The notes under the pieces: generated by a model
Seen by the model: the letters and a program-made list of their open reading frames with translations, nothing else
What the model was told of the DNA's origin: nothing
The model's database searches: none
Origin: Streptosporangiales bacterium
Lineage (GTDB): Bacteria > Actinomycetota > Actinomycetes > Streptosporangiales > Streptosporangiaceae
Direction of reading: 5' to 3'
DNA: 32,598 bases
NCBI GenBank assembly: GCA_009380095.1
Contig: WHSL01000043.1
Location: forward strand, 1-32,598
In this document: positions 7,448-32,400 of the stretch, piece after piece
Layout: each line of letters opens with the position of its first letter
How positions within the stretch are numbered: position 1 is the stretch's first letter
Program-made: the position numbers and the translations under genes

Positions 7448-7452
7448 TACGC

Positions 7453-9175: not shown

Positions 9176-9258
9176 ACCAGGTAGGCAACCAGAGCCCCAC
9201 GCGACGGCTTGCGCAGTATTGAGCGGGAATGTCGGCATCGCCGCCGCAGAGTCGCAGC
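9176..9258. promoter_or_regulatory. Divergent promoter region, globin / P450
   Basis: These 83 bases separate two divergent starts and are richer in A/T than the flanks, so they probably hold both promoters. I see no confident -10/-35 pair and no strong palindrome. An in-frame ATG at 9229 would extend the P450 by ten residues. Confidence 0.4.
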
Positions 9259-19400: not shown

Positions 19401-22400
19401 GGAGCGCTGTGCGATCGGGTCCGTGAAGTCCAACATCGGGCATCTGGAGGGCGCCGCCGGGATCGCCGGGCTCACCAAGGCGCTGCTGCAGATCCGGCAC
19501 GGCCGGCTGGTGCCGACGGCGAACCTCGCCGAGCCCAACCCCAAGATCGACTTCGGTGTGTTCGCGCCGCAGCGTACGGAGGCCGGCTGGTCGGCGCCGC
19601 ACGTGGCCGGGGTGAGCTCGTTCGGTGCCGGCGGGGCCAACGCGCATGTGGTGCTCGCGGGGTACGACCGGGCACCGCGCGGGCCCGAGCCGGCGGGGGA
19701 GAACACGCTGGTTCTGTCCGCACCCGACGCCAAGCGGCTCGACCGGCTGGCCGAGGCCGTCGCCGCGTACTGCGAGGACCCGCCCGCAGGGGTGACCGCG
19801 GCCGCGCTCGCGTACACCAGCCAGGTGGGGCGGCGCGCGTTCCCCCACCGCCTCGCCGTCACCGGCCGCGACCTGGGGGAGTTCGCCGCCGCTCTCCGCG
19901 CCGGGGAGGCCGGCGGGCTGTCCTCGACGGCGCGCCGGTGGCTGAGTGGGGAGCACGTTGACTGGGCGGCGGACTGGCCGGACCCGCCCGGCCGGGTCGC
20001 CTTCCCCGGCATCGCGTTGTTGCGCACCCGCTCCTGGGTCACCCCGGCCGCCACCCGCACCACCGCGGAGCCCGCGCCCGCGCTGCGGTACGAGCGGCCG
20101 GTGTGGCGGCCCGCGCCGCTCGGCATGGAGCAGCACTCGGTCCGGACTGCGGCCGTACTCGGGGACGGCCCGCTCGCGGAGGCGATAAGGGCGAACCTGC
20201 GTGCCATCGGCATCGAACCCGTCGCTACCCCGGGCACCGACCCCGCTGATCCCGTCGGCACCGCCCCTGTCGGCACCGCCCCTGTCGGCACCGAGCTCAT
20301 CGGAGTTCGGCCGGACGCGCTCGTGTATCTCGCCGGCGTGGACGATGCGGTGGGCGCATTCCATGCGTTGTTCGGCGCGGTCGTGCCGTTGCTGCGTCCG
20401 GGCTTGCGGATCGTGGCCGCGCATCCCGGCAACCCGCCGCATCTGTCCGCCTTGTCCGCGCTGGTCAAGACGCTCGCACTGGAGTGCCGTGGGAGTGGCG
20501 TGACGGTGGTCACGGCCGATCCGGATGCGATCGTGGCGGAGCTGCGGTACGGCAAGGACCCCGACGTCGCGTATCGCGACGGGGAACGGCTGGTGCGTGC
20601 CGAGGAGGAGTACAGGCCGGTGCCGCGGCCGGTGCGGTTCCGGGCCGACGGCACGTACCTGATCACGGGTGGAGCGGGCGGCATCGGCCGGCACCTGGCC
20701 GGGCTGCTGCTGCGCCGCGGCGCCGGCGAGGTCGTCCTGACCGGCCGCTCCCCGGAGTCGGCGGATCTGCCTCCCGGCACCCGGTATGAGCGCTGCGACG
20801 TCACCGATCCGGCCGCGGTGGAACGGCTGATCGGCGGGCTGTCCGGGTTGCGCGGAGTGATCCACGCCGCAGGAGTGATCCACGATGCCCCGGCCGCCGA
20901 GAAAACCCCGGAAGGGATCGCCGAGGTGCTCGGGCCGAAGATCACCGGCACGCTCAACCTGGAGGCGGCGCTCGCCGGGCGCAACCTAGACCTGTTCGTA
21001 CTGTGCTCCTCCGTCGTGGGCGGCGCAGGCAACCCGGGGCAGGCCGACTACGCGTACGGAAACGCGTTCCTCGACGCGTTCGCCGTCTCCCGCGACGGCG
21101 TGCTGTCCATCGGCTGGCCGCTGTGGGACGACGGCGGGATGACCGTGGACGCCCGCACCACCGAGGCGCTGCGCCGGCGGTACGGCGTGGTCCCGCTGGA
21201 CACCGAGGCGGCGCTGGACGCCTTCTGCACGCTGCTGACGGGCACGGAGCCGGTGGCCTCCGTGGTGCGGCTCGCACCGACGGAGGAGGGGACCGAGTTC
21301 GGGCCGGAGACCACGGCGCCCGAGCCGGAGCGCAGCGCCCTGCCGCGGACCGCCGCAGCCGAGCCGCGACTCTCCGCAGCCGAGCCGCGACTTCCCGTGG
21401 CCGAGCCGGGATCCCCAGCGGATGTGCTCGATCACCTCCGCGGACTCGCCGCGTCGTTTCTGCTCGTGCCGCCCGAGGAGGTGGACGCCGAGGGCGAGCT
21501 CATCGACATGGGGTTCGACTCGATCAGCATGACCGACCTCGCCGAACAGGCCGGGGCCGCGTACGACATCGAACTCAACCCGGCCGTACTGTTCGAGCAC
21601 CCCACCCTCGCCGCACTCGCCACCCACCTGGAGACGCACGCCGCGACGGCCCGCCGGACCGTACGCGCGGAACCGGCCGAACCCCGGACCGTACGCGCCG
21701 AGCCGGCCGAACCCCCCGCCTCCGCCGGGGACATAGCGATCATCGGCATGGCCGGGACGATGCCCGGCTCACCCAGCCTCGGCATGTTCTGGAAGCACCT
21801 CGCGGCCGGTGACGACCTGGTGCGACACGTACCGGAGGAGCGCGAGGAACTCCTCGAGGATCCGCGCACCCGACACCTGCGGGGCGGCTTCATCGACGGG
21901 GCCGGCGACTTCGACGCCGCGCTCTTCGGGGTGTCGCCGCGCGAGGCCGGGCTGATGGACCCGCAGCAGCGGCTGTTCCTGCAAGCCGCGTGGCTCGCCG
22001 TCGGCGACTCGGGGATCGACCCCGCCGCGCTGGCCGGCACCGATACCGGGCTGTTCGCCGGGGTGTCTACGCACGACTACGAGGACCTGATGGCGATGCA
22101 CGGGCTGCCCACCGAGGCGCATACGGCGACCGGGCTGTCCCACGCCGTCCTCGCCAACCGGGTCTCCCACCTGCTGGATCTGCGCGGGCCTAGCGAGGCC
22201 GTTGACACCGCCTGCTCCAGCTCGCTCGTCGCCGTACATCGTGCGGTACGGGCGCTGCGCGCAGGGGAGTGCGAGCTCGCCCTCGCCGGCGGGGTCGGCC
22301 TCACTCTTACCCCTGGGCTGTTCGTCGCGTTCACCGAGTCCGGCATGCTCAGCGCCGCCGGGCGGTGCGCGACCTTCGACGCCGCCGCCGATGGTTACGT

Positions 22401-25400
22401 ACGCGGTGAGGGTGTGGGGGCGGTGCTGCTCAAGCCGCTGTACGCGGCGCTGCGCGACGGCGATCCGGTGCACGCCGTGATCGCGGGCAGCGCGGTGGGG
22501 CACGGCGGGCGGGCCGCGTCTCTGACCGCGCCCAACCCGCGTGCCCAGGCCGACGTCATCACCGCGGCGCTGCGGGATGCCGGGGTCGCGCCCGGGGACG
22601 TCTCATACCTCGAGGCGCACGGTACCGGCACGCGGCTCGGCGATCCGGTGGAGATCGAGGGGCTGAAGAAGGTCTTCGGTACGGCCGCTGGAGAGATCGT
22701 GGTCGGTTCGGTGAAGACCAACGTGGGGCACCTGGAGGCCGCAGCCGGGATGGCCGGGCTGCTGAAGGTGCTTCTGTCGCTCCGGCACGGCAAGCTCCCG
22801 CCGCACCTGCATCTGGACACCCTCAGCCCGCACATCGACCTGGCCGGCACGCCGCTGACCATCTCCACGCGGCTGCGCGACTGGCCGGACCGGCCGGTAC
22901 GGATCGCCGGGGTCAGCTCGTTCGGGTTCGGCGGCACCAACGCGCACGTCGTCGTACGTGAGGCGCCCGGTCCTCCGCCGCCCGTGCGCGACGTGCCACC
23001 GCCGGCCCGCACCCGCCACTGGTTCACGGTCCCCAAGCCCGCCCCCGCCCCCGCGCCGGCCCCTGCTGCCCCTGCCCCTGCCCCTGCCTCCGGCCCCACG
23101 CACGCGTCTGCCTCCGCGCCCGCGCCTGCCTCCGCGCCCGCGCCTGCCTCCGCGCCCGCGCCTGCCTCCGGGCCCGCGCCTGCCTCCGCCCCTGCACTCG
23201 GTCCCGCGCCCGCCACTGCCCGCTCGTCCGGCCTGGCGTCCGCATCGCCAGCTCCGCCGCCGGCCGCATCGCCGGCCGCATCGCCCGAGCCATCGCCGGA
23301 CGGGCTCGCCGGGCGTATTCGGTGGCATCTCGCCGACCTGCTCGGCGGCGTCGCGGCGATCCCTGATGACCGGCCGTTCCAGGACCTCGGCCTCGACTCG
23401 ATCTTCGCGATGGAGCTCGCCGAGCGTCTGTCCGCCGAGGTCGGCCGCGAGGTGCAAGGCGCCGACCTGTACGAGTACGACACGATCGCCACGCTCGTCA
23501 CATACCTCGATGGGCCTCCACCCGAGCCGGCGGCCGCGCCCGAGGAGGGGCCCGAGGACGCCACTGATGGAGCCTCCGCACTCGCCGAGCTGCTGAGCGA
23601 GGTGGCCGGGCGGCCGATCGGGCCGGGCGACGACCTCGCGGCCGCGCTCACCTCGCTGCAGATGCTGCGCGCGGTGAGCACGCTGGAGGAGACGCACGGG
23701 CCCCTACCGAAGACGCTGTTCTTCGACCACCCCGACCTCGCCACGCTAAGCCGCCGCCTGAGGGAGGAGCCGACCGCCCCGGCCACGCCGACCACCTCGA
23801 CTGCCCCGACGACGCCGACGGCCCCGACCCCGCCGATCGCCTCGACCATGCCGACGGTCCGGAGCGCGCCGATGGCCCCGACCACGCCGACGGCCCCGAG
23901 CGCGCCGATCGCCTCGACCGCCCCGAGCGCGCCGTTCGCACCGAGCGCGCCGGCCGTCCCTACCGCGCCGGTCGTGATGCGGAAAGATGCGCTCGACGGC
24001 GATACGGCCGCCGCGGTTCGCCGCCTCACCGAGGCGCACGGCGTGGAGAGCGGCCTCGCCGGGGAGGACATCGCGCCCTGGATGCTGGTCACCCCGGACG
24101 GCTACGCCGAGCTCGCCCAGGACGACGCCGCCGTACTGGGATGGAGCCTGACCGGCGCGGACGAGGCACTGCCCGGCCTCGCCGACGCGGTCGCCCGCCA
24201 CGCACGGGACACCGGGCGGCGGGCCGCCGTACTGTCGCCCGTTCCGCTGACCGAGCTGGCGGGCGAGCCGTGCACCGCCACCCCGTTCGGCGTTGTACAT
24301 CACCTCGACGTCGCCGCGTTCGGCCTGGACGGCGCGCCGATGCGGCGGCTGCGTTCGGTGCTGAGCCGGTTCGCACGCGCCGGCGAGGCCACCGTCACCG
24401 AGTACCGCTCCGGCGACGACCCCGAGACCGACCTGGCGATCACTGAGCTGGTGGATGCCTGGTCGGCGGGCAAGGGCGACGTGGCCCCGTACGTGGCCCG
24501 GGTCCGCGAGCTGCTGCGCACCGGCGCCCTCGGCGACGGGCACCGGGTGTTCCTCACCCGGCTCGACGGGGAGCCGGCCGCCGTCGTCGTGCTCACCCCG
24601 CTCGGCTCCGAGCCGGGCTACCTGCTGGACGTCGAGTTCTACCGCGACGGCCTGCCACCCGGCACGCTCGAACACACCATCGTGGAGATCATCGCCGTGC
24701 TGCGTACGGAGAACGTGCCGACCCTCAGCCTCGGCCTCACCCTCGGGGTAGGGGTCACCGACTCCCCGAACCCCTCGCCCGACGCCGAGCGGGAGCTCGA
24801 GGAACTGGAACGGGCCAGCATGACCGGAGCGGGCAACCTGCGGTTCAAGCGCCGCTTCCGCTCCGCCGAGCTCCCCGTGTACCTGCTCCAACGCACGGCC
24901 GATCCCGTCCCGGTGGCGGACGTGCTCCTGATGATCGCCGGTACCGGCGACACGCCCGAGGTCCCGCCCGCGCCCCTGCCCGGCACGATCGACCTGGTCA
25001 CCGACTCCTGGGCGGAGCGCGACGACCTCTGGATCACCGACCGGCCTCGCCCCCTCGCCGCCACCGACGCGATCGCCCAGCCATGGCTGCCGTTCCCGTA
25101 CGTGGCCGCGACCCCGAGCGGACGCGCCGCCGAACGCGCCCTCTGCCGGGCCTGGCCGGGCCGCAGGGGAGTGGTACTGCACAACGGCCTCTTCCCCACC
25201 TGGCTGCACGCCGCCGCCACCGCCCGGTTCGAGCCCGAGCCCCTCACCGACCTGCCGGCCCAGTTGGAACGGCACGCCGGCCGGGTGGCGTTCGTCGCGA
25301 TCGAGCCCGGCTGCAACGCCGCCGGAGGCCCGGCCACGACCCTGGAGGAGCTGCGGGAGATCAAGAAACGGGCGGCCGGCGTCCCGCTCGTCCTGGACGC

Positions 25401-26817
25401 CACCCGCATCGTCACCGCCGCGGCCGGCCGGACCACGGGCGACCCCTGGGACCTTGTACGGGAGATGCTGGCCCCCGCCGACGCCGCGACGCTCAGCCTG
25501 TCCAAGGACTTCGCCGTTCCCACCGGCGGCCTCGTCTGCGCCCGGTCTCCCGAGCTCATCGAGCGGCTCCGCACCGACCGCGAGGCGTACGGCGGCGACG
25601 TGAGCCTGATGGACCGGCGGATGCTGCAGGCCGCGCTGTCCGACCATGCCGGGATCGCGCGGGCGGTACGGGACCGCCGCACCGCCGTGGCCGCCCTGCA
25701 CCGGCGGCTGCGTGAAGCCGGGCTACCGGTCACTCCCGAGCCGGGCGGCCACTGCGTGCTGCTCCGCGGCGACCTCCCCGACGGATGCGGCGTACGGGCC
25801 GCCCCGCACCTGCACGGCGACGCGCACCCCGAACTGGCCGGGCACGTACGGCTGGCCGTACCGCTCGGCATGGACACCGCCACCGCCGAACGCGCCGCCG
25901 ACCGCATCGCCGAAGCAGCCGGACCGCCCTCCGACGAGGGCTGGTTCGCCCGGCAGCTGCGTGAGCTGGGCGGACGGTTCGGCGAAGCCGACTATCACCC
26001 AGCCGGCGAGAACCTGGAGGTGCTGCGCGAGTTCCGCCTGGACATCGAGCACCGGCTGGTCACCGACCCCGACGGCGAGGTCGAGGTGTTCCTCGCCGGC
26101 TCCGGCCCCGACCTGGTGCTGATGCACCCATTCAACATCGGCGCGGGCATGTTCGCCGCCCAGTTCGCCGGGCTCGCCGGCCGGTACCGCCTGATCGTCG
26201 TACACCAGCCCGGCGTCGGCCGGACCCGCGTCTCGACCCCGCTCAGCCTGGAGGGCCTGACCACGCTGCAGCGCCGGGTGCTGGAATCGCTCGGCATGAC
26301 CGGCCCCGTGCACGTCGGCGGCGCCTCGGTCGGCGCGATCTTCGCCGAGTACTTCACGCTCCAAAACCCCGGCTACGTACGATCCCTCGCGCTACTCGGC
26401 GGCTCCTACCGGTTCGCCAACCGCAAGGGCCGCATCGACCGGCTGGACCAGGTCATTTCCGAGGACTTCGCCTCCATCCAGGCCGGCACGTCGTCGCCGG
26501 GTGTCGCGGCCGTCCGCGAGGACCTCACCGCGCTGCTGCTTCGCTGCGAGAGCATGGACCCGCGGACCGGCCTGCGCTACCTCGACCTGTTCGCCCAGGA
26601 ACCGGAGCTGGCGCCGCGCCTCCCCGAGATCGCCGTCCCCACGCTCGTGGTCCAGGGCCGGTACGACTCCGTCGTCGGCGTCAAGACCGGCCACTTCCTG
26701 CACGGCGCCATCCCGGACGCCCGGTACGTGGAACTGCCCGAGGCGGGCCACTTCGTCTGCCTCACCGACGCCGAGAAGGTCAACGCCGAGCTCACCGCCT
26801 TCCTCACCGCACCGTGA
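10471..26817 (+). CDS. LnmJ-like trans-AT PKS megasynthase with DUF-SH-TE terminus
   Basis: A single 16.3-kb gene for a 5,448-residue protein. Domain order with approximate residues: DH 5-255, ACP1 278-350 (Ser310), KR1 430-760, KS 778-1188, ECH2 1232-1472, ACP2 1495-1570 (Ser1533), KS 1672-2080, KR2 2176-2530, ACP3 (Ser2593), KS 2650-3066, KR3 3207-3590, ACP4 (Ser3684), KS 3754-4166, ACP5 (Ser4310), ACP6 (Ser4395), DUF 4510-4812, SH 4840-5150, TE 5204-5448. No AT and no methyltransferase are present. All four KS domains keep Cys-His-His and all three KRs keep the catalytic Tyr. The DUF-SH-TE end is the signature of leinamycin-family synthases; the domain most different from what I recall of LnmJ is the embedded ECH2. 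Start GTG 10471 has a strong ribosome binding site. Individual modules are described separately. Confidence 0.96.
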   Translation: MPGEPISCRLTVGTGDFVLRHHHVYGVGVLPGVVFIDVVLRVLAARGVPPAEVTLRDVLFTEPLTGDVDREVRVVVDDGSVTVDGRPAAGGEWRRHLTARLVPGSYDDPVLDPAPLVAGAERVRDLAELYAQARGEDIVHGAAMRAVGRLYLAGDGLLAEFALEEPGVDGFHLHPALLDASTLIAFARTPALDAPFIPITIDAVRAPRPLTTGGYVHVPRPESVAATGDVMRSGYRVYDRGGLLIAEFRGLACKRIRHPGLITRHAAGSVAEDPVVGYARRIEALVAGELGVAVDLVDRGVGFYDQGLDSLAMLRISERLEAVTSTELYPTLLFEHGDIDTLAAHLAATYGPPTPVAQAVPAPEPGREPAPEPGPVSASEHEPASKPKLEPASESERGPAPEAERGPAPETESRCGGEQRPQGEVRLYRRVWRPAPAPAAEPGEAGRAEGTEVRTLIAPTEPYAELTAAARDLLGASRPVLLHAGPDTPEQAALAAAARTFTAETPRLTCRSVVTAGDPVEAAARETSIGGPETEVRYRAGRREVPRWERLTGAGTSPLRKGAVYLIVGGGGGLARSLTRHLTERYDAHVVLAGRGVDPGLGTEYVRADVTDPEQAALAAEHARLLYGRLNGVFHLAGVVDDGVYVAKDPARSAAVLAPKLAGLRNLAAATAEDRLDVFAVFSSISAVLPNPGQADYAYANAYCDGYAQARGRPYVSIGWPYWADGGMRAEGPGMSTEQGLAALEQALASGEPYVAVTCGRELPEVTPETSPAGRPGDIAIIGFAGRYPQAPGLDAFWRNLTEGRDSVTAVPAAAWERRPGAGDADPYWGGFLEDADTFAPAFFKLSRRTAERMDPQERLFLQTAYHALEDAGLDPAGLRGTPVGVFAGVMWSHYQLQAAGDGVAPTVLHSSVPNRVSHHLDLTGPSVAVDTACSSSLVALHLAAESIRSGDCELAIAGGVNLTVHRQKYAQLRADGFLAEDGRCRAFGAGGTGYVPGEGVGAVVLKPLARALADGDAIDAIIRGSAVNHNGRTSGYTAPGPAGQAALIRAALDRAGVPPETVSYIEAHGTGTALGDPIEIDGLTRAYGGSGPVVRPVGSVKTNIGHLESAAGIAGLTKVLLQLRHRALVPSLHADVPNPEIPFDSSPFRVQRAYEPWRPLAEGVPLRAGISAFGAGGANAHVIVEEPPAGHRRTEGRPLTRFPVERCWLGDWAAGHDPVPAALDEPGAARVEPLMLRVLDPGIALIELREPMFTDALLSALENAFAEVEARAEVKAVVLTGTERVFGMGGTPETLRRLAARDGSFTEAAFLYEGPPRCAKPVIAAVRGQAHGGGLAFGLHADVAVLARDGSYSANFLKYGFTPGLGATEVLRRRFGAGIAAEMMLTGRTYSGAELERRGAQMRFEDGERVLPAALELARSMAELPVGALGALKAELARPYLDRQPEVIASETAMHQRTLGDEATALLAHRFAPAPAPTPLDPVPAPHPAPALEPVLDGDVTAAIVAGLCERLYLEPGELDHGRPFTDFGLDSIGAVELVRDLNERFDMDLDSTVVYDHPTVARLTEAVTAEIAAQGALLQAATAPSTPPPSEPAAPRRTVALAPLDAAEQPPPIAAELSPPAAAIPLPTLIAVADPLPPPAAEPLPPPAAEPLSVSDAGAGAVPDHERGGDAIAVVGMSGRWPDAPSLDAFWANLRAGHCAIRPAKRWGANGEGPYAALLDDPEVFDHRFFHLSPRQVEEMDPQQRLFLTEAHNALVDAGYATTPGLNCGVFAGCAPGDHLTLLADQGRDESAGAFLGSSGSILAARIGYHLDLRGPAVAIDTACSSSLVAVHLAAQSLLAGETDLALVGGVAVMLTPSLHVRSVAVGMISPTGTCRPFDAAADGIVLGEAVGAVVLKRLADALRDGDRIHGVIRASGVNSDGRSNGITAPSGAAQAELLRRAHERAGVRPRDIGLVEAHGTGTALGDPIEHRALREVLGDADTPWCGLGSAKGNVGHTTTAAGITGLIKLLLALRHRELPPLAGYERPNPELDLEGGPLYVVREPRLWEPGASGIRIGAVSSFGFSGTNAHVVVAEPLGPGPEQKPEQATEPSPKRTTTPKQERGQAPRPGTAQAARPGTGHAPGPGTGQAAGPETGQAPGPGVGQAAGPGTGLATRPGTGQAAEPAPDLAGRMYLPVWRETGPPGSPAEGRHVVFRCEPGLDAFAQAAALLRVVRELPAAEPVTLKVLTTGATAAAPGETADPGPAALIGLTRTIAAEYPHWRVALIDGAAESEVAAEDCAHTVVALRDGRRLVPGYDPFSPPTGPAPFRRGGTYLLLGGAGGIGRAVSAHLARTAGARLAWIGRRPEDDAIRAAMRTVEDSGGRAMYVTADAADEAALRRAVRAVRDRFGPVHGAFHTAVTPRDRLLRNTTEADLAHVFAAKVTGAENLVAALHGEPLDFLAFFSSSAGLIEADGQGGYAAASTFQDAYAAYLRAEGVPATVIDWGYWASVGMAADDRHRAAFAADGVGSIEPPLGMAALERVLAAGVERAVVIEAAPEGLARLGITAAPEPAPGESAAYIKRVFAEVLGHAEDELDERVTFEEFGVDSVVGAEIVERFERDLGPQPATLLFEANTIEKLAARLTAPTSRTGEPEADEPGPEPDLDAIAVIGVTGRYPDAPDLTAFWDNLTAGTCSIREVPPGRFDWRGAADSRKGPREHQRWGGFLDGVDEFDAGLFGVLPRDAADIDPQERLFLQACWSLLEQAGYLGESHEPRTGVFAGLMYGAYGELGAQAWERGEVTGAHSAYWSVANRVSYTFDLTGPSMAVDTACSSSLTAVHLACEAIRRGDCAMAIAGGVNVILHPLHFVSLGARGMLAGDGVPKVFDAAADGYVPGEGVGAVLLKPLRTALADGDDIWAVIAGTAVNAGGKTSGYTTPNPNAQAALIADAITRSGLDPASVGLIEAHGSGTALGDPIELAGLAQSFTELGGGPERCAIGSVKSNIGHLEGAAGIAGLTKALLQIRHGRLVPTANLAEPNPKIDFGVFAPQRTEAGWSAPHVAGVSSFGAGGANAHVVLAGYDRAPRGPEPAGENTLVLSAPDAKRLDRLAEAVAAYCEDPPAGVTAAALAYTSQVGRRAFPHRLAVTGRDLGEFAAALRAGEAGGLSSTARRWLSGEHVDWAADWPDPPGRVAFPGIALLRTRSWVTPAATRTTAEPAPALRYERPVWRPAPLGMEQHSVRTAAVLGDGPLAEAIRANLRAIGIEPVATPGTDPADPVGTAPVGTAPVGTELIGVRPDALVYLAGVDDAVGAFHALFGAVVPLLRPGLRIVAAHPGNPPHLSALSALVKTLALECRGSGVTVVTADPDAIVAELRYGKDPDVAYRDGERLVRAEEEYRPVPRPVRFRADGTYLITGGAGGIGRHLAGLLLRRGAGEVVLTGRSPESADLPPGTRYERCDVTDPAAVERLIGGLSGLRGVIHAAGVIHDAPAAEKTPEGIAEVLGPKITGTLNLEAALAGRNLDLFVLCSSVVGGAGNPGQADYAYGNAFLDAFAVSRDGVLSIGWPLWDDGGMTVDARTTEALRRRYGVVPLDTEAALDAFCTLLTGTEPVASVVRLAPTEEGTEFGPETTAPEPERSALPRTAAAEPRLSAAEPRLPVAEPGSPADVLDHLRGLAASFLLVPPEEVDAEGELIDMGFDSISMTDLAEQAGAAYDIELNPAVLFEHPTLAALATHLETHAATARRTVRAEPAEPRTVRAEPAEPPASAGDIAIIGMAGTMPGSPSLGMFWKHLAAGDDLVRHVPEEREELLEDPRTRHLRGGFIDGAGDFDAALFGVSPREAGLMDPQQRLFLQAAWLAVGDSGIDPAALAGTDTGLFAGVSTHDYEDLMAMHGLPTEAHTATGLSHAVLANRVSHLLDLRGPSEAVDTACSSSLVAVHRAVRALRAGECELALAGGVGLTLTPGLFVAFTESGMLSAAGRCATFDAAADGYVRGEGVGAVLLKPLYAALRDGDPVHAVIAGSAVGHGGRAASLTAPNPRAQADVITAALRDAGVAPGDVSYLEAHGTGTRLGDPVEIEGLKKVFGTAAGEIVVGSVKTNVGHLEAAAGMAGLLKVLLSLRHGKLPPHLHLDTLSPHIDLAGTPLTISTRLRDWPDRPVRIAGVSSFGFGGTNAHVVVREAPGPPPPVRDVPPPARTRHWFTVPKPAPAPAPAPAAPAPAPASGPTHASASAPAPASAPAPASAPAPASGPAPASAPALGPAPATARSSGLASASPAPPPAASPAASPEPSPDGLAGRIRWHLADLLGGVAAIPDDRPFQDLGLDSIFAMELAERLSAEVGREVQGADLYEYDTIATLVTYLDGPPPEPAAAPEEGPEDATDGASALAELLSEVAGRPIGPGDDLAAALTSLQMLRAVSTLEETHGPLPKTLFFDHPDLATLSRRLREEPTAPATPTTSTAPTTPTAPTPPIASTMPTVRSAPMAPTTPTAPSAPIASTAPSAPFAPSAPAVPTAPVVMRKDALDGDTAAAVRRLTEAHGVESGLAGEDIAPWMLVTPDGYAELAQDDAAVLGWSLTGADEALPGLADAVARHARDTGRRAAVLSPVPLTELAGEPCTATPFGVVHHLDVAAFGLDGAPMRRLRSVLSRFARAGEATVTEYRSGDDPETDLAITELVDAWSAGKGDVAPYVARVRELLRTGALGDGHRVFLTRLDGEPAAVVVLTPLGSEPGYLLDVEFYRDGLPPGTLEHTIVEIIAVLRTENVPTLSLGLTLGVGVTDSPNPSPDAERELEELERASMTGAGNLRFKRRFRSAELPVYLLQRTADPVPVADVLLMIAGTGDTPEVPPAPLPGTIDLVTDSWAERDDLWITDRPRPLAATDAIAQPWLPFPYVAATPSGRAAERALCRAWPGRRGVVLHNGLFPTWLHAAATARFEPEPLTDLPAQLERHAGRVAFVAIEPGCNAAGGPATTLEELREIKKRAAGVPLVLDATRIVTAAAGRTTGDPWDLVREMLAPADAATLSLSKDFAVPTGGLVCARSPELIERLRTDREAYGGDVSLMDRRMLQAALSDHAGIARAVRDRRTAVAALHRRLREAGLPVTPEPGGHCVLLRGDLPDGCGVRAAPHLHGDAHPELAGHVRLAVPLGMDTATAERAADRIAEAAGPPSDEGWFARQLRELGGRFGEADYHPAGENLEVLREFRLDIEHRLVTDPDGEVEVFLAGSGPDLVLMHPFNIGAGMFAAQFAGLAGRYRLIVVHQPGVGRTRVSTPLSLEGLTTLQRRVLESLGMTGPVHVGGASVGAIFAEYFTLQNPGYVRSLALLGGSYRFANRKGRIDRLDQVISEDFASIQAGTSSPGVAAVREDLTALLLRCESMDPRTGLRYLDLFAQEPELAPRLPEIAVPTLVVQGRYDSVVGVKTGHFLHGAIPDARYVELPEAGHFVCLTDAEKVNAELTAFLTAP
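10483..12760 (+). other. Module part DH-ACP-KR (no KS)
   Basis: The DH hot-dog fold has HxxxGxxxxP at His22-Pro31 and a second-half HPALLDAS with Asp179, but lacks the usual Gln/His four residues after the Asp. ACP1 follows with GLDSL (Ser310), then a Glu/Pro-rich linker and KR1 with a GGGGGLA nucleotide loop near residue 568, Ser684 and Tyr697. DH-ACP-KR order is typical of trans-AT systems. The missing KS is most simply the C-terminal KS of the 2-5056 gene. This is the only DH visible in the window. Confidence 0.88.
12802..15190 (+). other. Module KS-ECH2-ACP with embedded crotonase
   Basis: The KS (Cys934, His1069, His1107) is followed directly by an enoyl-CoA-hydratase fold at residues 1232-1472, then ACP2 (Ser1533). 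The crotonase segment HGGGLAFGLHAD (from His1332) and FLKYGFTPGLGAT (from residue 1357) resembles PksI-type ECH2 enzymes, which decarboxylate the 3-methylglutaconyl-type intermediate. It does not resemble ECH1 dehydratases. No KR or DH is present, so the condensation product stays beta-keto, as beta-branching requires. Leu1539 sits where beta-branching ACPs usually carry Trp (serine plus six). Confidence 0.85.
15481..18370 (+). other. Module KS-KR-ACP (first)
   Basis: KS with Cys1826, His1961 and His1999; its second His motif reads GNVGHTTTAAG, unlike the NIGHLE form of the neighbours, suggesting a different substrate clade. A repeat-rich linker follows, then KR2 (GGAGGIG near 2322, Ser2450, Tyr2463) and ACP3 with GVDSVVGAEI (Ser2593). 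The predicted outcome is a beta-hydroxy group unless a dehydratase acts in trans. Confidence 0.88.
16792..16974 (+). repeat. 24-bp tandem array in KS-KR2 linker
   Basis: Seven full and one partial 24-bp units encode an octapeptide of the type QAAGPGTG. All units are in frame. The array lengthens the linker between the KS and KR2. Neighbouring units differ at several positions, so expansion is not very recent. Confidence 0.9.
18418..21640 (+). other. Module KS-KR-ACP (second)
   Basis: KS with Cys2816, His2951 (HGSGT instead of HGTGT) and His2991. A remnant post-KS linker (about 3075-3190) follows without AT activity motifs. KR3 has GGAGGIG at 3400-3406, Ser3514 and Tyr3527. ACP4 has MGFDSISM (Ser3684). 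Short 15-bp repeats encoding PVGTA occur near 20256-20295 and two RTVRAEPAEP copies follow the ACP. The expected product is a beta-hydroxy unit. Confidence 0.88.
21730..23760 (+). other. Terminal module KS-ACP-ACP
   Basis: KS with Cys3915, His4050 and His4087, then an Ala/Pro linker, ACP5 with LGLDSIFAMEL (Ser4310) and ACP6. In ACP6 the serine motif reads LTSLQML (Ser4395), with Thr in place of the usual Asp. The module has no KR, DH or ER, so it delivers a beta-keto thioester to the DUF-SH-TE region. Tandem ACPs are frequent where beta-branching or tailoring takes place on the synthase. Confidence 0.85.
23110..23181 (+). repeat. 18-bp tandem array (Ala/Pro linker)
   Basis: Three exact units and one near-exact unit of 18 bp encode ASAPAP. 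They lie inside a longer Ala/Pro-rich linker (about 23035-23310) before ACP5. The identity of the copies at DNA level suggests recent slippage. Confidence 0.9.
23815..23919 (+). repeat. 33-bp direct repeat in Pro/Thr/Ser linker
   Basis: Bases 23815-23847 and 23887-23919 differ at about three positions. They sit in a Pro/Thr/Ser/Ala-rich linker (about 23770-23975) joining ACP6 to the DUF domain. Confidence 0.75.
24004..24912 (+). other. DUF domain of DUF-SH didomain (GNAT/DUF2156-like)
   Basis: About 300 residues (4510-4812) between ACP6 and the lyase. Position and size match the DUF of leinamycin synthase LnmJ, proposed there to help add cysteine to an unsaturated chain. The middle (near AVLSPVPL, LRSVLSRFARAG and HRVFLTRLDGEPAAVVVL) resembles the C-terminal domain of lysyl-phosphatidylglycerol synthases (DUF2156), a GNAT-like fold that moves aminoacyl groups. 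That resemblance is by eye and moderate. Confidence 0.7.
24988..25920 (+). other. SH domain: PLP-dependent cysteine lyase
   Basis: About 310 residues (4840-5150) of the tryptophanase/tyrosine phenol-lyase fold. Visible landmarks are Asn4949 in GCNAAGG, Asp4976 in LVLDATR (contacts the PLP ring nitrogen) and Lys5012 in LSKDFAVPTGG, which forms the Schiff base. The order and spacing match tryptophanase (NSAGG, MDAAR, KKDAMVPMGG). In leinamycin the SH domain cleaves the C-S bond of a cysteine adduct, leaving a thiol on the polyketide with loss of pyruvate and ammonia. The same role is inferred here. Confidence 0.88.
26080..26814 (+). other. C-terminal thioesterase domain
   Basis: An alpha/beta hydrolase of about 245 residues with Ser5286 in GGASVGA, Asp5399 in GRYDSV and His5427 in AGHFVC. 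It releases the finished chain by hydrolysis or macrocyclisation. Leinamycin-type products are macrolactams, but the nucleophile here cannot be decided without the loading region. Confidence 0.9.
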
Positions 26818-26840: not shown

Positions 26841-27611
26841 TCAGCGGAAGTAACGCACCGTGGCGTCCTCGGCGCCTCCCTCCGCCAGGTGCCGCGTGAA
26901 CCGCCCCGCATGCACCTGGTGCACAAAGTTCCAGGTGAGCGAGACGCTGTCGGACAGCGCGAGCACCGTGTGGCACCAACCGGCGGGGATGTAGACCGCG
27001 TCGCCGGGCTCCAGGATCTCGTCGAAGGCCGGCCGGGCGTCCCTCCAGAGCGGGAACCCGCCGGGCGCCGGCGGGAACATGATCACCCGCTTCTCCCCGG
27101 CCGCCTGGCACAGGCAGGCGTCGCTGCCCCACGGGTCGGTGTGCAGCCGGGTACGCCCGCCCGCGCCGCACACGAAGATCCCCTTGCCGGGGAAGGAGTC
27201 CCGTACGGGATCGGCCGCCCGCGCCGGGTGCGGGAACACGTATCCGGAGTCGGGCAGGAACGTCGGCACCGACCAGTCCTCGACGAGCGCCGCGAAGGCG
27301 TCGTCGGCCCAGGGAAGCCGCTCCGGGCCCTGCCGGGAGAACCAGCGCAGGTACGGCGGCTCGTCATGCCAGGCCGCCCGGGTGTGCCGCGATACATAAT
27401 CGCCGAACGTGGACAGGCCGCGCAGCGCGAAAAGCGTGTCGTAAAGCGGAACCCGCAGGCCGCCGAAGCGCTCGGCGAGCGTCGTCAGGTCCCACGGCGG
27501 GGCCCACCGCCAGCCGGCGAGCGCCCCGCGCACCAGCACCGGCCGTCCCGGCACCAGGTACTCCGTCAGGAACGTCTCGGACCGCAACGTGTCCACCGTG
27601 CCCAGCGTCAT
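26841..27611 (-). CDS. JmjC-like cupin, Fe(II)/2-oxoglutarate oxygenase
   Basis: A 256-residue cupin_8/JmjC-type protein. The iron ligands of the facial triad are visible: His157 and Asp159 in RLHTDPWG, and His214 in PAGWCHTVL. The fold's start (EYLVPGRPVLVRGAL) and the IPAGWCH turn are typical. Members hydroxylate proteins or small molecules. ATG 27611 is preferred because the family usually starts close to this motif; GTG 27662 is an alternative 12 bases after the preceding gene. It converges on the megasynthase with only 23 bases between stops. It could be a tailoring hydroxylase of the pathway or an unrelated neighbour. Confidence 0.88.
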   Translation of the reverse strand: MTLGTVDTLRSETFLTEYLVPGRPVLVRGALAGWRWAPPWDLTTLAERFGGLRVPLYDTLFALRGLSTFGDYVSRHTRAAWHDEPPYLRWFSRQGPERLPWADDAFAALVEDWSVPTFLPDSGYVFPHPARAADPVRDSFPGKGIFVCGAGGRTRLHTDPWGSDACLCQAAGEKRVIMFPPAPGGFPLWRDARPAFDEILEPGDAVYIPAGWCHTVLALSDSVSLTWNFVHQVHAGRFTRHLAEGGAEDATVRYFR

Positions 27612-27674
27612 GCGCCCGACCGTACGGCCGCCTCCCGTACCCGGCCGCCCAATAGTGCGCACCGGCGGGCGGGC

Positions 27675-28829
27675 TCAGCCTGCGAATTCGCGTTCGAGCG
27701 GGGTGCGGAAGCGGGGCGTGACGGTGACCGGGCTGTCCGCCAGCCAGGCCGCGAGCCTGTCGCGTTCCGCCTCGACGGCGGCGGTGGCTTCGGCGTCGAG
27801 GGCGGTGAGGGGCTCCCAGACGACCTCGCCGGTACGGCGCTGCGCCCAGCCGCCCACCACCCGGCCGTTCCACCACACGGTGGGGCCGATGTTGCCGCTC
27901 CGGTCGTGCAGCCGGATGCGCTGCTCGTCGTCCGGCAGGTACCAGTCGCGGTGCTTCCAGCCCATCGGCGTCGGGTCCAGGGCGGGCAGCAGCGCGGCCC
28001 AGTTCCCGTCCGGGGCGTCGGCGTCCAGGGTCTCCGCGAGGGCGTAGCCGGGGCCCTCGTCGAGCTCGACCGGGACGGCACCGACCGCGGTCAGTGCGGC
28101 GTGGGTCTCGGTGAGCGTCCAGCCGGTCCACCACTGCAGGTCGGTGAGCTGGCCGGGCCCGTACGCGGACAGCCAGAGCCGGGCCAGCGTGGCGCGGGCC
28201 TCGGCGGGCTCCGGCTCCGGCAGCGCGGGGGCGAGCGCCCAGCGGAACTGGTTGCTGGTCCAGCCGCCGCGCGGCGCCCGGCGCACCACCGCGCCGCGCA
28301 TCCCGAGCAGGGTGAGCAGCCGTGTGCCGATGCTGAACGGTGGCGCCCCGGAAGGACCGGGCACCGCGGTCCGCAGCCGCGGCACCCGCTCGGCCAGCTC
28401 CGCGCCGGTCGCCTCGCCGAGCTCGGCGAGCACCTCCAGGACCTGCGCGTTCACCGAGTCCAGCCAGTCCTCGCCGAGGCCGGCCGCGGTCAGGTACTTC
28501 AGCACGTTCCGCTGCTCTCGTACGGTGACCGCGCGCGACGCCGCCCGCACCACCGGGGCGAGCTCCACGGGGACCACGAACACGGTGCGGCGCATGCCAT
28601 GCATCCGTACCAGCGATCCGTCGTACAGCTCCTCGCCCACGGACTTCAGGCTGGAATCGCCGAGGCGGGCCCGTACGGACAGGTGGACGGTGGCCGGGTC
28701 CGTACCGTGCAGCGCCACCACCGCGGCGGTGACCTCGGCGGCCGAGCCGGCCGGTACGGAAAGCCGGTGTCGTGCCGCGAGCAGACGGCGGCGATGGACC
28801 GCCGTGACCGCGGGCGAGCCGCCGCTCAC
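27675..28829 (-). CDS. Winged-helix DNA-binding protein, AlkZ/YcaQ (HTH_42) family
   Basis: A 384-residue protein of the HTH_42 family, which includes the DNA glycosylases AlkZ and YcaQ that remove bulky alkyl lesions. At the position where AlkZ relatives carry the catalytic Gln-x-Gln, this protein has His41-Gly42-Thr43 (LHGTDPATVHLS). That form is common in uncharacterised actinobacterial members, so glycosylase activity is uncertain. The GTG at 28829 is chosen because AGGG lies just upstream; an in-frame ATG at 28880 exists. It probably forms a short operon with the cupin gene. In a cluster for a possible DNA-alkylating product it is a self-resistance candidate, but it may be housekeeping. 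Confidence 0.85.
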   Translation of the reverse strand: MSGGSPAVTAVHRRRLLAARHRLSVPAGSAAEVTAAVVALHGTDPATVHLSVRARLGDSSLKSVGEELYDGSLVRMHGMRRTVFVVPVELAPVVRAASRAVTVREQRNVLKYLTAAGLGEDWLDSVNAQVLEVLAELGEATGAELAERVPRLRTAVPGPSGAPPFSIGTRLLTLLGMRGAVVRRAPRGGWTSNQFRWALAPALPEPEPAEARATLARLWLSAYGPGQLTDLQWWTGWTLTETHAALTAVGAVPVELDEGPGYALAETLDADAPDGNWAALLPALDPTPMGWKHRDWYLPDDEQRIRLHDRSGNIGPTVWWNGRVVGGWAQRRTGEVVWEPLTALDAEATAAVEAERDRLAAWLADSPVTVTPRFRTPLEREFAG

Positions 28830-28857
28830 TTTTGAGCCGCCCTGTCGGTGCCCGCCG

Positions 28858-28874
28858 CTACGGTGGCTCCGTAG
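28858..28874. promoter_or_regulatory. Palindrome in divergent intergenic region
   Basis: CTACGG at 28858-28863 and CCGTAG at 28869-28874 form a perfect 6-5-6 inverted repeat midway between the divergent starts at 28829 and 28928. This is a plausible operator. The regulator is unknown. Confidence 0.45.
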
Positions 28875-28927
28875 GCGCAATCGAGGTTCGTGAAATCGGG
28901 ACCGTCCGCAGGGGAGGCGTCGTTTCG

Positions 28928-29359
28928 ATGGCTGCTGCTCATGACCACAACTACTACCGGACTCTCATCGCCGTCGCCGACGACTGCCCGGTCGACGAGA
29001 GCGTCGTCCCGGAGGACACGCGGCGCGGCGGCAAGAAGGGCGTGGCCTCGATCCACTACGACATGCTCGCCGGGCAGCCGTACCGGCACACCCAGGAGGA
29101 CGTGCTGTTCCAGACCTGGCTGGAGCGGCAGGACGAGCAGCCCGGCTCGCCGGACGAGATAGCCCGCCTGCGGGACGAGTTCTTCGCCAAGCCCAAGCCC
29201 TGCCTGCGCACGTCCCCGCTCGGCAAGCGGTACGGCTGGGGCTTCGCGTTCGACGCCGAGGGCCGGGTCGCGCTGCTGCCGATGGAGTCCGAGGAGTACC
29301 GGAAGCTGCTCGACGGGGGAGAGGTGAAGGTGCTCAAGGCGATGAAGACGAAGCGCTGA
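28928..29359 (+). CDS. DUF6157-like small protein
   Basis: A 143-residue soluble protein beginning MAAAHDHNYYRTLIAVADDCP, with conserved-looking KKGVASIHYDML and RYGWGFAFD blocks. It resembles the DUF6157 family, which has no known function. ATG 28928 is preferred over the upstream in-frame ATG 28832 because AGGGGAGG lies about ten bases before it. Its 3' end overlaps the end of the convergent AT-ER gene by 26 bases. I see no link to polyketide synthesis; it may be an ordinary chromosomal gene caught between cluster segments. Confidence 0.8.
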   Translation: MAAAHDHNYYRTLIAVADDCPVDESVVPEDTRRGGKKGVASIHYDMLAGQPYRHTQEDVLFQTWLERQDEQPGSPDEIARLRDEFFAKPKPCLRTSPLGKRYGWGFAFDAEGRVALLPMESEEYRKLLDGGEVKVLKAMKTKR

Positions 29360-31625
29360 GCCCGCCGGGCCGACCAGGGCCTCGTAGCCGTTCGGCCGCG
29401 CCGCGCATCAGCGACTCGGCGACGACGTCGACGTGCCGGGCCCGCCGGTCGGCGAGCGCGGTGCCCGCGGCGTACCGGTTGAACGCGCCCATCGCCGGGC
29501 CGCAGTGCACTTGGAAGTTGACCCGGTCGTCCGCCCTGCCCTGCAGCGCCGCGACGGTGGTGCGCGCCAGGTAGGCGCGGAAGACCAGCGCCATCTTGAC
29601 CTTGGGGTCGGCCTCCGCGCGGGCGGCCTGACCGGGGTCGCGCCCGGCCAGGTAATGCTCGCGGGTCTCCCGCCAGATCTCGTCCAACGACCGGCGGAAG
29701 TAGGTGCGCTCGATGGTCGCGCGGGTATGCGCGTCGATCTCCTCGAGGGAGTCGTGCTGCCGGAACAGCCGGTAGAGCTGGTTGGCGCGCGCGGCGAACA
29801 GCGTGCCTTTGCGCATCACCTGCACCCGGGCGCCGAGCTCGAACATGTCGCCCGCCGGGGCGTAGGCGGTGTCGTGCTCGGTGAGGTCGGCCAGCGCGTC
29901 CTTGACGGCCTCGGACGTGCCGGCCTCCGGCGTGCACTGGTTGACGGAGCCGGTCACCACGAAGTCCGCGCCGAGCACGAACGCGGCCGCGACCGCCTCC
30001 GGGCAGCCGAGCCCGCCGGAGGCGCCGACGCGCAGCGGCTCGGCGTACCGTTCCGCGTCCATGACCGCATCCCGGAGCCGGGTGAACGCCGGGACCAGCA
30101 CGGGCATCGCCGCGCCGTCGGTGTGGCCGGCGGAGTCGGCCTCCGCGCACACGTCCCCGGCGACCGGGAGGCCGTGGGCCGCCTCGGCCTCCTCCCGGGT
30201 CAGGGCGCCCTCGGCGACGAGCCGGTCGAGGATGGCGGCGGGCGGCGGCCGCATGAACGCCTCCGCCACCTCCAGCCGCGAGGCCTTGGCCAGCACGTGC
30301 CGTACGGCGACGGGCCGTCCGGCGGCGTCCCGGTGCGCGCCGGCGAACCGGAACCGGACCAGCGGCGCGGTGATCCGCGTGTACCCGGCGGCCTCGGCGA
30401 ACCGTACGTCGTGCCGGAGCAGCAGTTCCACGGTGGCGCGCTCGAGTTCCTGCTCGCCCGGTCCGTAGAGCAGGTTGACGCCGAAGTTCGCGCGGCCCGC
30501 GAGGGCGGACCGGATCGTGATCATCGCCTTCTCCACGGCGTCCAGCGGCAGTCCGCCGGAGCCGAAGAAGCTCATCAGACCGGCCTCGCCCATCCGGATC
30601 ACCAGCTCCGCGGAGGAGATGCCGCGGAACATCGACCCGGCGAGGTACGCGTACCGGATCCCGTAGTCCCGCCGGAACGCGGCCGATCCCAGTTGCCTCG
30701 CCGCCTCCTCGGCGCTGCTCGCGGCCTCGGCGGCCGGCGGGGATCGTGGGGGGTCAGTGGGGGGTGGGGGAGCGGGGCGGGCCGGGGGTTCCGTACGGCA
30801 GGCGCGCCAGAGCCCGGTGAGCGTGGTGCCCGGTCCGACCTCGGCGACCTCGGTGACACCCAGCCCGAGCAGCGTGCGCATCGAGTCCCGCCACCGCACG
30901 GGACCGCTGATCTGCTCGGTGAGCAGCGCTCCGATCCCGGTATCCGGGTACGGGCGGGCGGTCGCGTTGGCGATCACGGGCACCCGGGGAGGCGCGAACG
31001 GTACGTCCGCGATCGCCTGGCCGAAGGCCTCGGCCGCCTCCCGCATGTACCGCGAGTGGAAGGCTGCGGCCACGTTGAGGCGGACGAACCGCCCGCCAGC
31101 CTCCCGTACCGGCACCGCCAGCGCCGCGACCGCCTCGCTCGGCCCGGAGATCACGGTCTGCTCGGCGGAGTTGAGGTTGGCGACGTCCACCGCGCCGCCC
31201 TCGAGCAGGCGGATCACCCGCTCGGCGGGGAGGCCGATCACCGCCGCCATCGTGCCCCCGGCGGCGCGCTCCATCAGCTCGCCGCGGTGCCATACGATCC
31301 GCAGCGCGGTCTCCAGGTCCATACACCCCGCCGCCCACAGCGCCACCAGCTCGCCCAGGCTGTGCCCCGCCAGGGCCGCGGGCGGCGCCGCCCCGTCGTC
31401 CAGCCGGGCCAGGTACGTGAGCGCGTCCACCAGGAACAGCGCGGGCTGCGCGTACCGGGTGCTGCCCAGCCGTTCCCGGTCCGCGCAGACCTCGGCCACG
31501 GAGAAGCCGAGCACCCGGCCCGCGGTCGCCAGGTGCTTGGGGTAGCGGTCGAGCACGCCGGCCCCCATGCCGGCGTGCTGGGAACCCTGCCCGGGGAACA
31601 GCCACGCCTCCACGGCTGGGCTCAC
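29334..31625 (-). CDS. Trans-acting acyltransferase-enoylreductase (LnmG type)
   Basis: A 763-residue didomain. The N-terminal AT (about 1-290) has FPGQGSQ, Ser89 in GHSLGE and the catalytic His in AAAFHS, consistent with malonyl-CoA specificity; it would load the AT-less modules of both synthases. A Pro/Ala linker leads to an FMN-dependent enoylreductase of the PfaD family (about 305-763), with GASGGLGCPEAV and FVVTGSVNQCTPEAGTS. This reduces an alpha,beta-double bond in trans. It matches LnmG of leinamycin, also AT plus oxidoreductase. GTG 31625 overlaps the regulator stop (GTGA); the frame continues upstream only as an antisense-like shadow within the regulator. It is the only AT in the window. 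Confidence 0.94.
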   Translation of the reverse strand: MSPAVEAWLFPGQGSQHAGMGAGVLDRYPKHLATAGRVLGFSVAEVCADRERLGSTRYAQPALFLVDALTYLARLDDGAAPPAALAGHSLGELVALWAAGCMDLETALRIVWHRGELMERAAGGTMAAVIGLPAERVIRLLEGGAVDVANLNSAEQTVISGPSEAVAALAVPVREAGGRFVRLNVAAAFHSRYMREAAEAFGQAIADVPFAPPRVPVIANATARPYPDTGIGALLTEQISGPVRWRDSMRTLLGLGVTEVAEVGPGTTLTGLWRACRTEPPARPAPPPPTDPPRSPPAAEAASSAEEAARQLGSAAFRRDYGIRYAYLAGSMFRGISSAELVIRMGEAGLMSFFGSGGLPLDAVEKAMITIRSALAGRANFGVNLLYGPGEQELERATVELLLRHDVRFAEAAGYTRITAPLVRFRFAGAHRDAAGRPVAVRHVLAKASRLEVAEAFMRPPPAAILDRLVAEGALTREEAEAAHGLPVAGDVCAEADSAGHTDGAAMPVLVPAFTRLRDAVMDAERYAEPLRVGASGGLGCPEAVAAAFVLGADFVVTGSVNQCTPEAGTSEAVKDALADLTEHDTAYAPAGDMFELGARVQVMRKGTLFAARANQLYRLFRQHDSLEEIDAHTRATIERTYFRRSLDEIWRETREHYLAGRDPGQAARAEADPKVKMALVFRAYLARTTVAALQGRADDRVNFQVHCGPAMGAFNRYAAGTALADRRARHVDVVAESLMRGAAERLRGPGRPGGLSASSSSP

Positions 31626-32338
31626 GAGGCGGCGAGGAGGTATTGGAGCAGGCGGTCCTCGTGCACGACGATCGCCTGGGAGCGCCGCTCCACCAGCTGG
31701 TCGTCCTCGAAGCAGCGCAGGAAGTAGCCGACCCGGGAGCGGGTGGTGCCGACCATCTGGCCGAGCTCGTCGTGGGTGATCCGGCAGGTGATGGACAGCG
31801 CCGGGCCGGTGCGTACGCCGTGCTTGCGGGCCAGCCGCAGCAGGGTGGTGGCGAGCCGCTGTTTGCTGTCCAGGGTGACGAAGTGGGTGAGGGCCTCCTG
31901 CTGGTCGGCGATCCAGCCGGTGAGGTAGCGGTGCCAGGCGTCGCGGAGCAGCGCGTCCGCCATGATCTGCTGGAACTGGTCGCCGGCGATCACCCGGATC
32001 TCCGCCTGCGTCTTCGTCATCGCGGTCTCGGAACGCTGCCGGGTGATGAGGCTGGAGACGCCGAGCAGATCCGTGGGCCCGTTGATCGCCAGCAGGCACG
32101 GTTTCCCGCCCCAGGACCAGGTGACGCTCTTCACCCAGCCGCTCTGTATGAGATAGAGCCAGTCACCCGAGTCGCCCCAGCTGTACAGGTGGACGGCGGA
32201 CGGGAGCTTACGGATCGGCGCGTGAAATGCACCTTCGTTTATCCGCTCAAAGAGAATCCGACCCAAATCGGAATCGTCGGGAAATGCTTTTCTGGAACCT
32301 CCAGTCGTGCCCGTAATCGTTCGAAGCGATGTCGGCAT
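31622..32338 (-). CDS. Crp/Fnr-family regulator (LnmO type)
   Basis: A 238-residue transcription factor. The N-terminal half has a cyclic-nucleotide-binding-type beta-roll (LYSWGDSGDWLYLIQSGWVKS). The C-terminal half has a winged helix-turn-helix near residues 185-215 (ITHDELGQMVGTTRSRVGYFL). No N-terminal cysteine cluster is seen, so an oxygen-sensing Fe-S centre as in Fnr is unlikely. ATG 32338 is chosen because GGGGGAGG lies six bases upstream; the frame stays open to 32398. It overlaps the AT-ER start by GTGA. LnmO, the pathway activator of leinamycin, is of the same family, so a cluster activator is the natural inference. Confidence 0.93.
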   Translation of the reverse strand: MPTSLRTITGTTGGSRKAFPDDSDLGRILFERINEGAFHAPIRKLPSAVHLYSWGDSGDWLYLIQSGWVKSVTWSWGGKPCLLAINGPTDLLGVSSLITRQRSETAMTKTQAEIRVIAGDQFQQIMADALLRDAWHRYLTGWIADQQEALTHFVTLDSKQRLATTLLRLARKHGVRTGPALSITCRITHDELGQMVGTTRSRVGYFLRCFEDDQLVERRSQAIVVHEDRLLQYLLAAS

Positions 32339-32386
32339 GGCATGCCTCCCCCGCGTCGTAGCCCTGTATCGAACCGGAAGGCTCGT

Positions 32387-32400
32387 ACGTGCGTTCACGT
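32387..32400. promoter_or_regulatory. Palindromic operator candidate upstream of Crp/Fnr gene
   Basis: ACGTG at 32387-32391 and CACGT at 32396-32400 form a perfect 5-4-5 palindrome, about 49 bases before the regulator start. The dyad symmetry is what a Crp/Fnr dimer would bind; autoregulation is inferred. Confidence 0.45.

Follow-up and report, generated by a model that had tools for sequence, protein, structure and literature searches.

The 32,598-nt contig WHSL01000043.1 from the Streptosporangiales bacterium assembly GCA_009380095.1, analysed here over its whole length and referred to as the window, carries a LnmJ-like megasynthase gene (10471..26817, +) whose last module is predicted to be the final module of a leinamycin-family hybrid nonribosomal peptide synthetase (NRPS)-polyketide synthase (PKS), in a cluster where a single 3-hydroxy-3-methylglutaryl (HMG) synthase (HMGS) appears to serve both β-branching modules, 5 and 8. 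The explanation considered likely as a whole joins this leinamycin-type module and the shared HMGS with an AZL2-type DNA glycosylase that is possibly protective. The ketosynthase (KS) of module 8 would extend the chain on the first module-8 acyl carrier protein (ACP), after which the HMGS, together with KS0, a donor ACP and the enoyl-CoA hydratase (ECH) homologue ECH1, would convert the β-ketone into a carboxylated β-branch. The DUF domain would help to add L-thiocysteine to the resulting alkene, a step that published work gives as a proposal, the pyridoxal 5'-phosphate (PLP)-dependent SH domain would cleave the cysteinyl C-S bond to leave -SSH, and the thioesterase (TE) would release and cyclise the chain. 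Service of modules 5 and 8 by one module-5-type HMGS would be permitted by replacement of a docking arginine in the module-8 ACP by alanine or threonine, and the AZL2 glycosylase may clear guanine adducts of the product from the DNA of the producer. The module-8 steps from chain extension to release are proposed by homology, from what has been published on the leinamycin, guangnanmycin and weishanmycin pathways. The DUF-SH system is itself known; what appears to be new, as far as searched, is a lineage with one HMGS and a changed acceptor ACP, together with the presence of an AZL2 gene within a cluster of this kind.

An observation made in a first-pass annotation, that the megasynthase ends in tandem ACPs, DUF, SH and TE, was confirmed by domain hidden Markov models (HMMs), which gave KS-ACP-ACP-DUF-SH-TE at the C-terminus of a 5448-residue protein coded by an uninterrupted frame. 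The terminal domains in the interval then assigned, 23560-26817, are real, but its start falls at the second ACP and so omits the first, which the HMM places at 23305-23520. With dehydratase (DH) and ketoreductase (KR) domains included, the whole gene reads DH-ACP-KR / KS-ECH-ACP / KS-KR-ACP / KS-KR-ACP / KS-ACP-ACP-DUF-SH-TE. Module 8 consists of a KS (21727-22965, +, by domain HMM), the acceptor ACP (23305..23520, +; GLDSIFAME), a second ACP (23566..23772, +) with Thr -1, Met +3, Arg +5 and Pro +26, which form the clade-2 signature, the DUF (24007..24945, +), the SH domain (24985..25920, +), predicted to be a PLP-dependent thiocysteine lyase, and the TE (26011..26814, +; Abhydrolase_1, E 1.1e-13), with Ser5286 in GASVG and candidate Asp5399 and His5427.

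Relatives were sought within the order, where seven further DUF-SH megasynthases were found in 345 genomes, and in a scan of named genomes that gave 38 loci, including that of Streptomyces sp. CB01635 (L062), the leinamycin producer (PMC8479088). In a DUF-SH-TE tree of 33 of the 39 loci, the window formed a group with two others, L030 from Micromonospora sp. RHAY321 and L029 on a metagenome contig from a metagenome-assembled genome (MAG) labelled 'Deltaproteobacteria', at 100/100 support and apart from the remaining 30. Membership of the leinamycin family, as first annotated, is backed by the layout of module 8 and by the trees, the fold and the genes present.

The SH region matched the Pfam family Beta_elim_lyase (E 1.8e-18) and, by sequence, PDB entry 9cen (E 2e-53), values which exclude chance. 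Its predicted structure (mean predicted local distance difference test, pLDDT, 91.3) had as top solved match the same entry, 'thiocysteine lyase (SH) domain from guangnanmycin A' (TMq 0.90, 40% identity), which ranked above tyrosine phenol-lyases and tryptophanases in the structure search. The fold-type I PLP lysine and its partner residues are all present, with Lys5012, Asp4976 and Asn4949 at the positions claimed and invariant in 23/23 aligned SH domains. The possibility that the SH region is a free tryptophanase domain, named at the outset as what would overturn the assignment, was ruled out by a tree of 48 rows covering 35 of the 39 loci, in which 34 of the 35 SH rows formed one group (96/76) and 12 of 13 free lyases formed another elsewhere (99/100). 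The stray SH row, from the short MAG contig L063, lay beside the free lyases with weak support (80/48), and the stray free lyase, L008, stood alone on a very long branch. The SH domains of LnmJ, GnmT and WsmR favour a thiocysteine mimic 50- to 106-fold and are thiocysteine lyases that install -SSH, the isolated thiols being disproportionation products of the persulfide (PMC8479088). As the family's SH domains act in this way, the nascent product here should also carry -SSH, and by homology the SH domain of the window is expected to leave a hydropersulfide in place of the thiol on the chain that had first been predicted.

The HMGS gene of the window (7444..8685, +) is the sole match in its genome (G000) to PF08540, the C-terminal HMGS family, at E <= 1e-8, the threshold applied to 31 genomes (30 of the relatives' 34 and the window's own; L044, L046, L048 and L052 were left out). 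The Micromonospora genome likewise yielded one HMGS, as did the cluster contig of L029, and each of the 28 other genomes examined yielded two (28/28). The L029 genome holds an extra HMGS on contig C52, which was rejected as a missed LnmM-type gene and is probably of another kind, being only 34-44% identical to both cluster types alike (best matches). A tree of 60 rows, a subset of all HMGS found, split 28/32 at 100/100: the genes of the 28-row clade lie upstream of the megasynthase or on separate contigs, those of the 32-row clade just downstream of it. All three HMGS of the lineage fell in the upstream, module-5-type clade, and no sulfur-module HMGS of the LnmM/WsmS type was seen in any of the three lineage clusters. 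The CB01635 enzyme in the downstream clade is taken to be LnmM from its position. The label 'LnmM-like' initially given to the HMGS was therefore wrong in subtype, since the enzyme sits in the module-5, WsmD-type clade, apart from the megasynthase-adjacent enzyme of CB01635; the AT-ER, CRP/FNR-type regulator, discrete ACP, type II TE and HMGS genes reported with it are all present. In weishanmycin biosynthesis module 8 is served by WsmS, a member of the LnmM clade that acts only on ACP7, and module 5 by WsmD, which acts only on the module-5 ACP; neither can take the place of the other (PMC7618002).

A corresponding change was found in the acceptor ACP. In WsmR, the R39A mutation of the module-8 ACP7 abolished HMG formation (PMC7618002). 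The residue at that place, +3 from the carrier serine, was Arg in 34 of 36 two-ACP loci, the remaining two, the window and L029, having Ala; it was Thr in the single-ACP L030 and Arg in all two-ACP loci outside the lineage (34/34). These counts omit L063, a short contig outside the LNM type, and L065, in which no DUF was found, and keep L044 and L054, which have no TE because their contigs end. The window's module-5 ACP, behind the ECH domain (14968..15186, +; GLDSIGAVE), also has Ala at +3, as did every readable module-5 ACP (15/15; 15 of 17 sources were readable, namely 13 of 14 stretches, the window and Micromonospora, with the CB01635 stretch and L029 unread). The window's acceptor ACP has four of the five residues Asp35, Arg39, Asp/Glu41, Tyr60 and Asp63 (WsmR ACP7 numbering), with Arg39 replaced by Ala, this set being one reported for clade 1 of 29 PKSs and not a published family definition. 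Loss of the module-8 HMGS and change of the module-8 ACP thus coincide, and in two of the three members the new residue is exactly that of module 5. From this it is inferred that one HMGS serves both modules.

Several points weigh against this account. The HMGS loss and the ACP change belong to one lineage of three clusters, so that their coincidence is possibly one linked event and has no statistical weight. The genome G000 is in 413 contigs, with the cluster on at least three, and the absent HMGS gene could therefore sit in a gap; the 961-kb Micromonospora contig makes the better argument. Six of the 28 comparison genomes, that of the leinamycin producer among them, have the second HMGS on a contig other than that of the SH domain, so that it need not be a cluster gene. 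The in-cluster HMGS of L029 groups with a Chloroflexota enzyme (100/98) and not with that of the window, and L065 (Streptomyces sp. NBC_01669), with two HMGS in its genome, likewise has none beside the megasynthase. The window's SH domain is shorter than that of guangnanmycin in loops ahead of the catalytic part and near the C-terminus, and the enzyme and product steps of the explanation stand as predictions. A truncated or dead SH domain was nevertheless rejected as the meaning of the short loops, since the C-terminal shortening recurs in large part in the relatives L010 and L011, and the fold was predicted with confidence.

The same HMGS and ACP observations could also mean that module 8 is no longer β-branched, the HMGS serving module 5 only and the DUF-SH pair sulfurating an unbranched acceptor. 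This would fit the failure to find a module-8-type HMGS and the disappearance of the very Arg whose mutation in WsmR stopped HMG formation (PMC7618002), but the window, L029 and L030 retain other acceptor-clade residues (Asp -1, Glu/Asp +5, Tyr +24 and Asp +27), and module 8 has no KR or DH, so that an unbranched β-ketone would presumably give no alkene for thiocysteine addition; this reading is regarded as unlikely, if well worth keeping in mind. Far less probable is the first annotated chemistry, in which SH would act as a cysteine lyase and leave an ordinary thiol: LnmJ-SH does have weak cysteine-lyase activity in vitro (PMC8479088), yet the strong preference of three family members for the thiocysteine mimic, the origin of their thiols in persulfide disproportionation and the identity of the nearest structure, itself a thiocysteine lyase domain, all argue otherwise. 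Least probable of all is a degenerate cluster that makes no product. A DH, present in module 6 of Micromonospora and L029, was not recognised in that of the window, and the window's DUF is the sole exception at several positions constant in the other DUFs; the 16-kb frame, however, is open, and the four megasynthase KS cysteines, the module-8 carrier Ser, the TE triad candidates and the PLP residues are all present.

The product of the glycosylase gene (27675..28880, -) is AlkZ-like, matching PF06224 across its whole length, and carries the motif LHGTD, the L030 copy having IHATD. Both agree with the AZL2 motif H-phi-(S/T)-(D/E), in which phi is aliphatic (PMC9040887) and in the window is Gly, as in L081 and L091; a standard QAQ-type AZL was thereby ruled out. 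One AZL2 protein excises 7-methylguanine, and AZL2 genes were reported to be missing from the 20 kb around Streptomyces gene clusters (PMC9040887). The window's gene, unlike those Streptomyces genes, is in-cluster, lying between the cupin and AT-ER genes, and the Micromonospora copy adjoins the regulator; among the 38 loci, only L030 had an AZL2 gene within the flanks examined. Because leinamycin alkylates guanine, a role in self-resistance is plausible, and an in-cluster glycosylase would in turn point to a DNA-alkylating product.

It is nearly as conceivable that the AZL2 gene is a general repair gene lying in the cluster by chance, although this is held somewhat the less probable. AZL2-clade genes turned up in 13 of the 59 genomes of other relatives that were searched, with fragments in a 14th (G150), the published distance from Streptomyces clusters (PMC9040887) points the same way, and the window and L030 copies were not shown to be mutual closest kin and were not accepted as proven orthologues. 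Against chance stand the flanking of the window's gene by two cluster genes, cupin and AT-ER, the presence of AZL2 also in the sole locus of 38 with the same cupin (L030), and a QAQ-type AZL gene one gene from the AT-ER gene in Saccharothrix sp. ST-888 (L138, G356:C862:68796-70022, -). Every one of the 34 genomes searched has a PF06224 gene among the matches listed, so that any linkage must rest on position. Among those matches, an AlkZ gene lay on the SH contig within ~55 kb in G346 (Micromonospora), G356 (Saccharothrix), G358, G352 and G370; as ~2 such co-locations were estimated by chance, with five to six matches per genome, weight was given only to the core-adjacent cases (window, G346 and G356). 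The G352 glycosylase gene is located past another PKS gene, and that of Streptomyces sp. CB01201 by the start of the NRPS (G358:C40:198020-198982).

The interest of the shared-HMGS reading lies in the finding for weishanmycin that each β-branching module needs its own HMGS, with no mutual substitution (PMC7618002). A one-enzyme lineage altered at the key ACP residue would amount to a natural experiment on HMGS-ACP pairing and would be useful for β-branch engineering. Neither such a lineage nor an in-cluster AZL2 gene was met in the literature searched, which took in passages of two largimycin papers (PMC9396626, PMC13200230) and few subscription journals. In L030 (G346:C1, ~477-481 kb) a single ACP precedes DUF-SH-TE, an arrangement unique among the 35 loci with DUF and TE; a TE with one module-8 ACP therefore speaks against the proposed need of a second ACP for TE off-loading, and the Micromonospora enzyme offers a test of that need.

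The DUF domain matched LPG_synthase_C (E 1.5e-15), as did all 25 DUFs compared, and its model (pLDDT 91.8) matched the C-terminal synthase domain of MprF over its full length (7duw, Z 23.6; 5vrv, E 4e-17). The next fold matches were 2hqy (function unknown), the streptothricin aminoacyl-tRNA-dependent synthases (Z 17) and FemX (Z 15-16), and acetyl-CoA enzymes ranked below all of these. The domain thus has the DUF2156/LPG_synthase_C fold shared by tRNA-dependent aminoacyl transferases, and Asp4720 and Lys4793 are invariant in 25/25 DUFs. Its role was left open in PMC8479088 and is a proposal in PMC7618002, and the fold by itself shows no function. Cysteinyl-tRNA synthetase is said to make cysteine persulfide, and the DUF might be a domesticated transferase moving a persulfidated cysteinyl group from cysteinyl-tRNA to the ACP-bound alkene, in which case the S-S unit of the polyketide would come from the translation apparatus. 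This is a long shot, weakened by the acidity of the domain (pI 4.7 in the window, mean 5.5 over the 25), which argues against tRNA binding; a search for literature joining leinamycin with tRNA-dependent chemistry turned up nothing related.

The rest of the window agrees with a leinamycin-type cluster. Upstream lie an LnmI-like PKS gene (2..5056, +; KS-KR-ACP-KS) whose 5' end is cut by the contig edge, a discrete donor ACP of 78 aa resembling LnmL and WsmT (5056..5292, +), KS0 (5289..6458, +), in which GGASASGN replaces the catalytic Cys motif and which is presumed to be the decarboxylating donor enzyme of the HMGS cassette, and an LnmN-like type II TE gene (6566..7447, +). The HMGS gene is followed by genes for a bacterial-type globin (8699..9238, -), with a 75% identical copy at the equivalent place in the Micromonospora cluster, and a cytochrome P450 (9229..10461, +). 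Downstream of the megasynthase are a Cupin_8/JmjC-like gene with an HxD...H motif (26841..27662, -; 57% identical to a gene in the Micromonospora cluster), the glycosylase gene, a DUF6157 gene (28832..29359, +) whose true start is probably further in, the AT-ER gene for an LnmG-like trans acyltransferase and PfaD-type reductase (29334..31625, -; pfaD_fam, E 7e-188) and an LnmO-like CRP/FNR-type regulator gene (31622..32398, -). Module 6 (15484-18366) has no recognised DH, so that a hydroxyl may remain at that position.

Parts of the assembly line were also found elsewhere in the same genome. On contig C256 a frame of 1084 residues has 48% identity to residues 299-1360 of the Micromonospora LnmI front piece, the NRPS domains of which were identified by eye, and contig C237 carries an LnmI front and a divergent ECH1 in the Micromonospora layout. 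Of a possible eight-module hybrid NRPS-PKS, C256 holds sequence resembling condensation and adenylation domains and C237 a carrier protein; a stretch linking C256 to the window was searched for in this genome and not found. HMGS, KS0, donor ACP and ECH1 are all present in the genome, while no module-8-type HMGS was found there. The globin recurs near leinamycin-type megasynthases in 12 of 34 genomes (G376 counted by locus range), at up to 54 kb on the contig of the SH domain, and nothing related turned up in a search for literature tying globin to leinamycin. A DUF6157 gene is also found near the start of the L029 megasynthase (53%), and a similar protein is coded ~14 kb from the Micromonospora LnmI gene. 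On a further contig of the window's genome, L188 (G000:C64:4546-5709) shares 61% identity with a protein whose gene, at 531-532 kb, is close to the Micromonospora cluster; that protein is acyl-CoA-dehydrogenase-like by eye.

Among the more distant relatives, L041 is a leinamycin-type cluster in a Chloroflexota MAG (Ardenticatenaceae), and L065 has SH and TE but lacks a detectable DUF, nor was an HMGS found in its examined flank; it is possibly a DUF-less variant. Within the lineage, the L029 megasynthase is split across several frames, with unreadable codons present. Of 32 plasmid records matched in a search, four large Streptomyces/Kitasatospora plasmids had DUF-SH-like matches (~41% identity over >=80% of the query), and 16 of those listed besides the four matched the lyase part only. 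By April 2021 the DUF-SH system was already known from 109 clusters, among which three groups were not leinamycin-type (PMC8479088).

Among the closest known counterparts is the Micromonospora sp. RHAY321 cluster (G346:C1, 470.8-516 kb), which shares the LnmI-like gene, KS0, type II TE, HMGS, globin, P450, LnmJ-like gene, cupin, AT-ER, CRP regulator, AZL2, divergent ECH1 and single genomic HMGS, and differs in having one module-8 ACP, a DH in module 6 and AZL2 past the regulator instead of between cupin and AT-ER. With the guangnanmycin enzyme GnmT the window shares the SH fold, PLP lysine and partner residues, and with AZL/AZL2 glycosylases (AlkZ, HedH4; PMC9040887) PF06224 and the AZL2 motif, but here the gene is inside the cluster. 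The leinamycin cluster of CB01635 has the same KS-ACP-ACP-DUF-SH-TE terminus, a type II TE, an HMGS and a CRP-type regulator; no donor-ACP match was found in its examined flank and no ECH domain in the stretch examined for module 5. It has, however, a downstream-type HMGS beside the megasynthase and Arg in the module-8 ACP, and the window has neither. Weishanmycin and largimycin clusters share the DUF-SH terminus and, on the preferred reading of the window, β-branching in two modules, and the former also a KS0 donor and an in-cis ECH, but whereas these clusters use two module-specific HMG synthases (PMC7618002), the window's lineage shows one.

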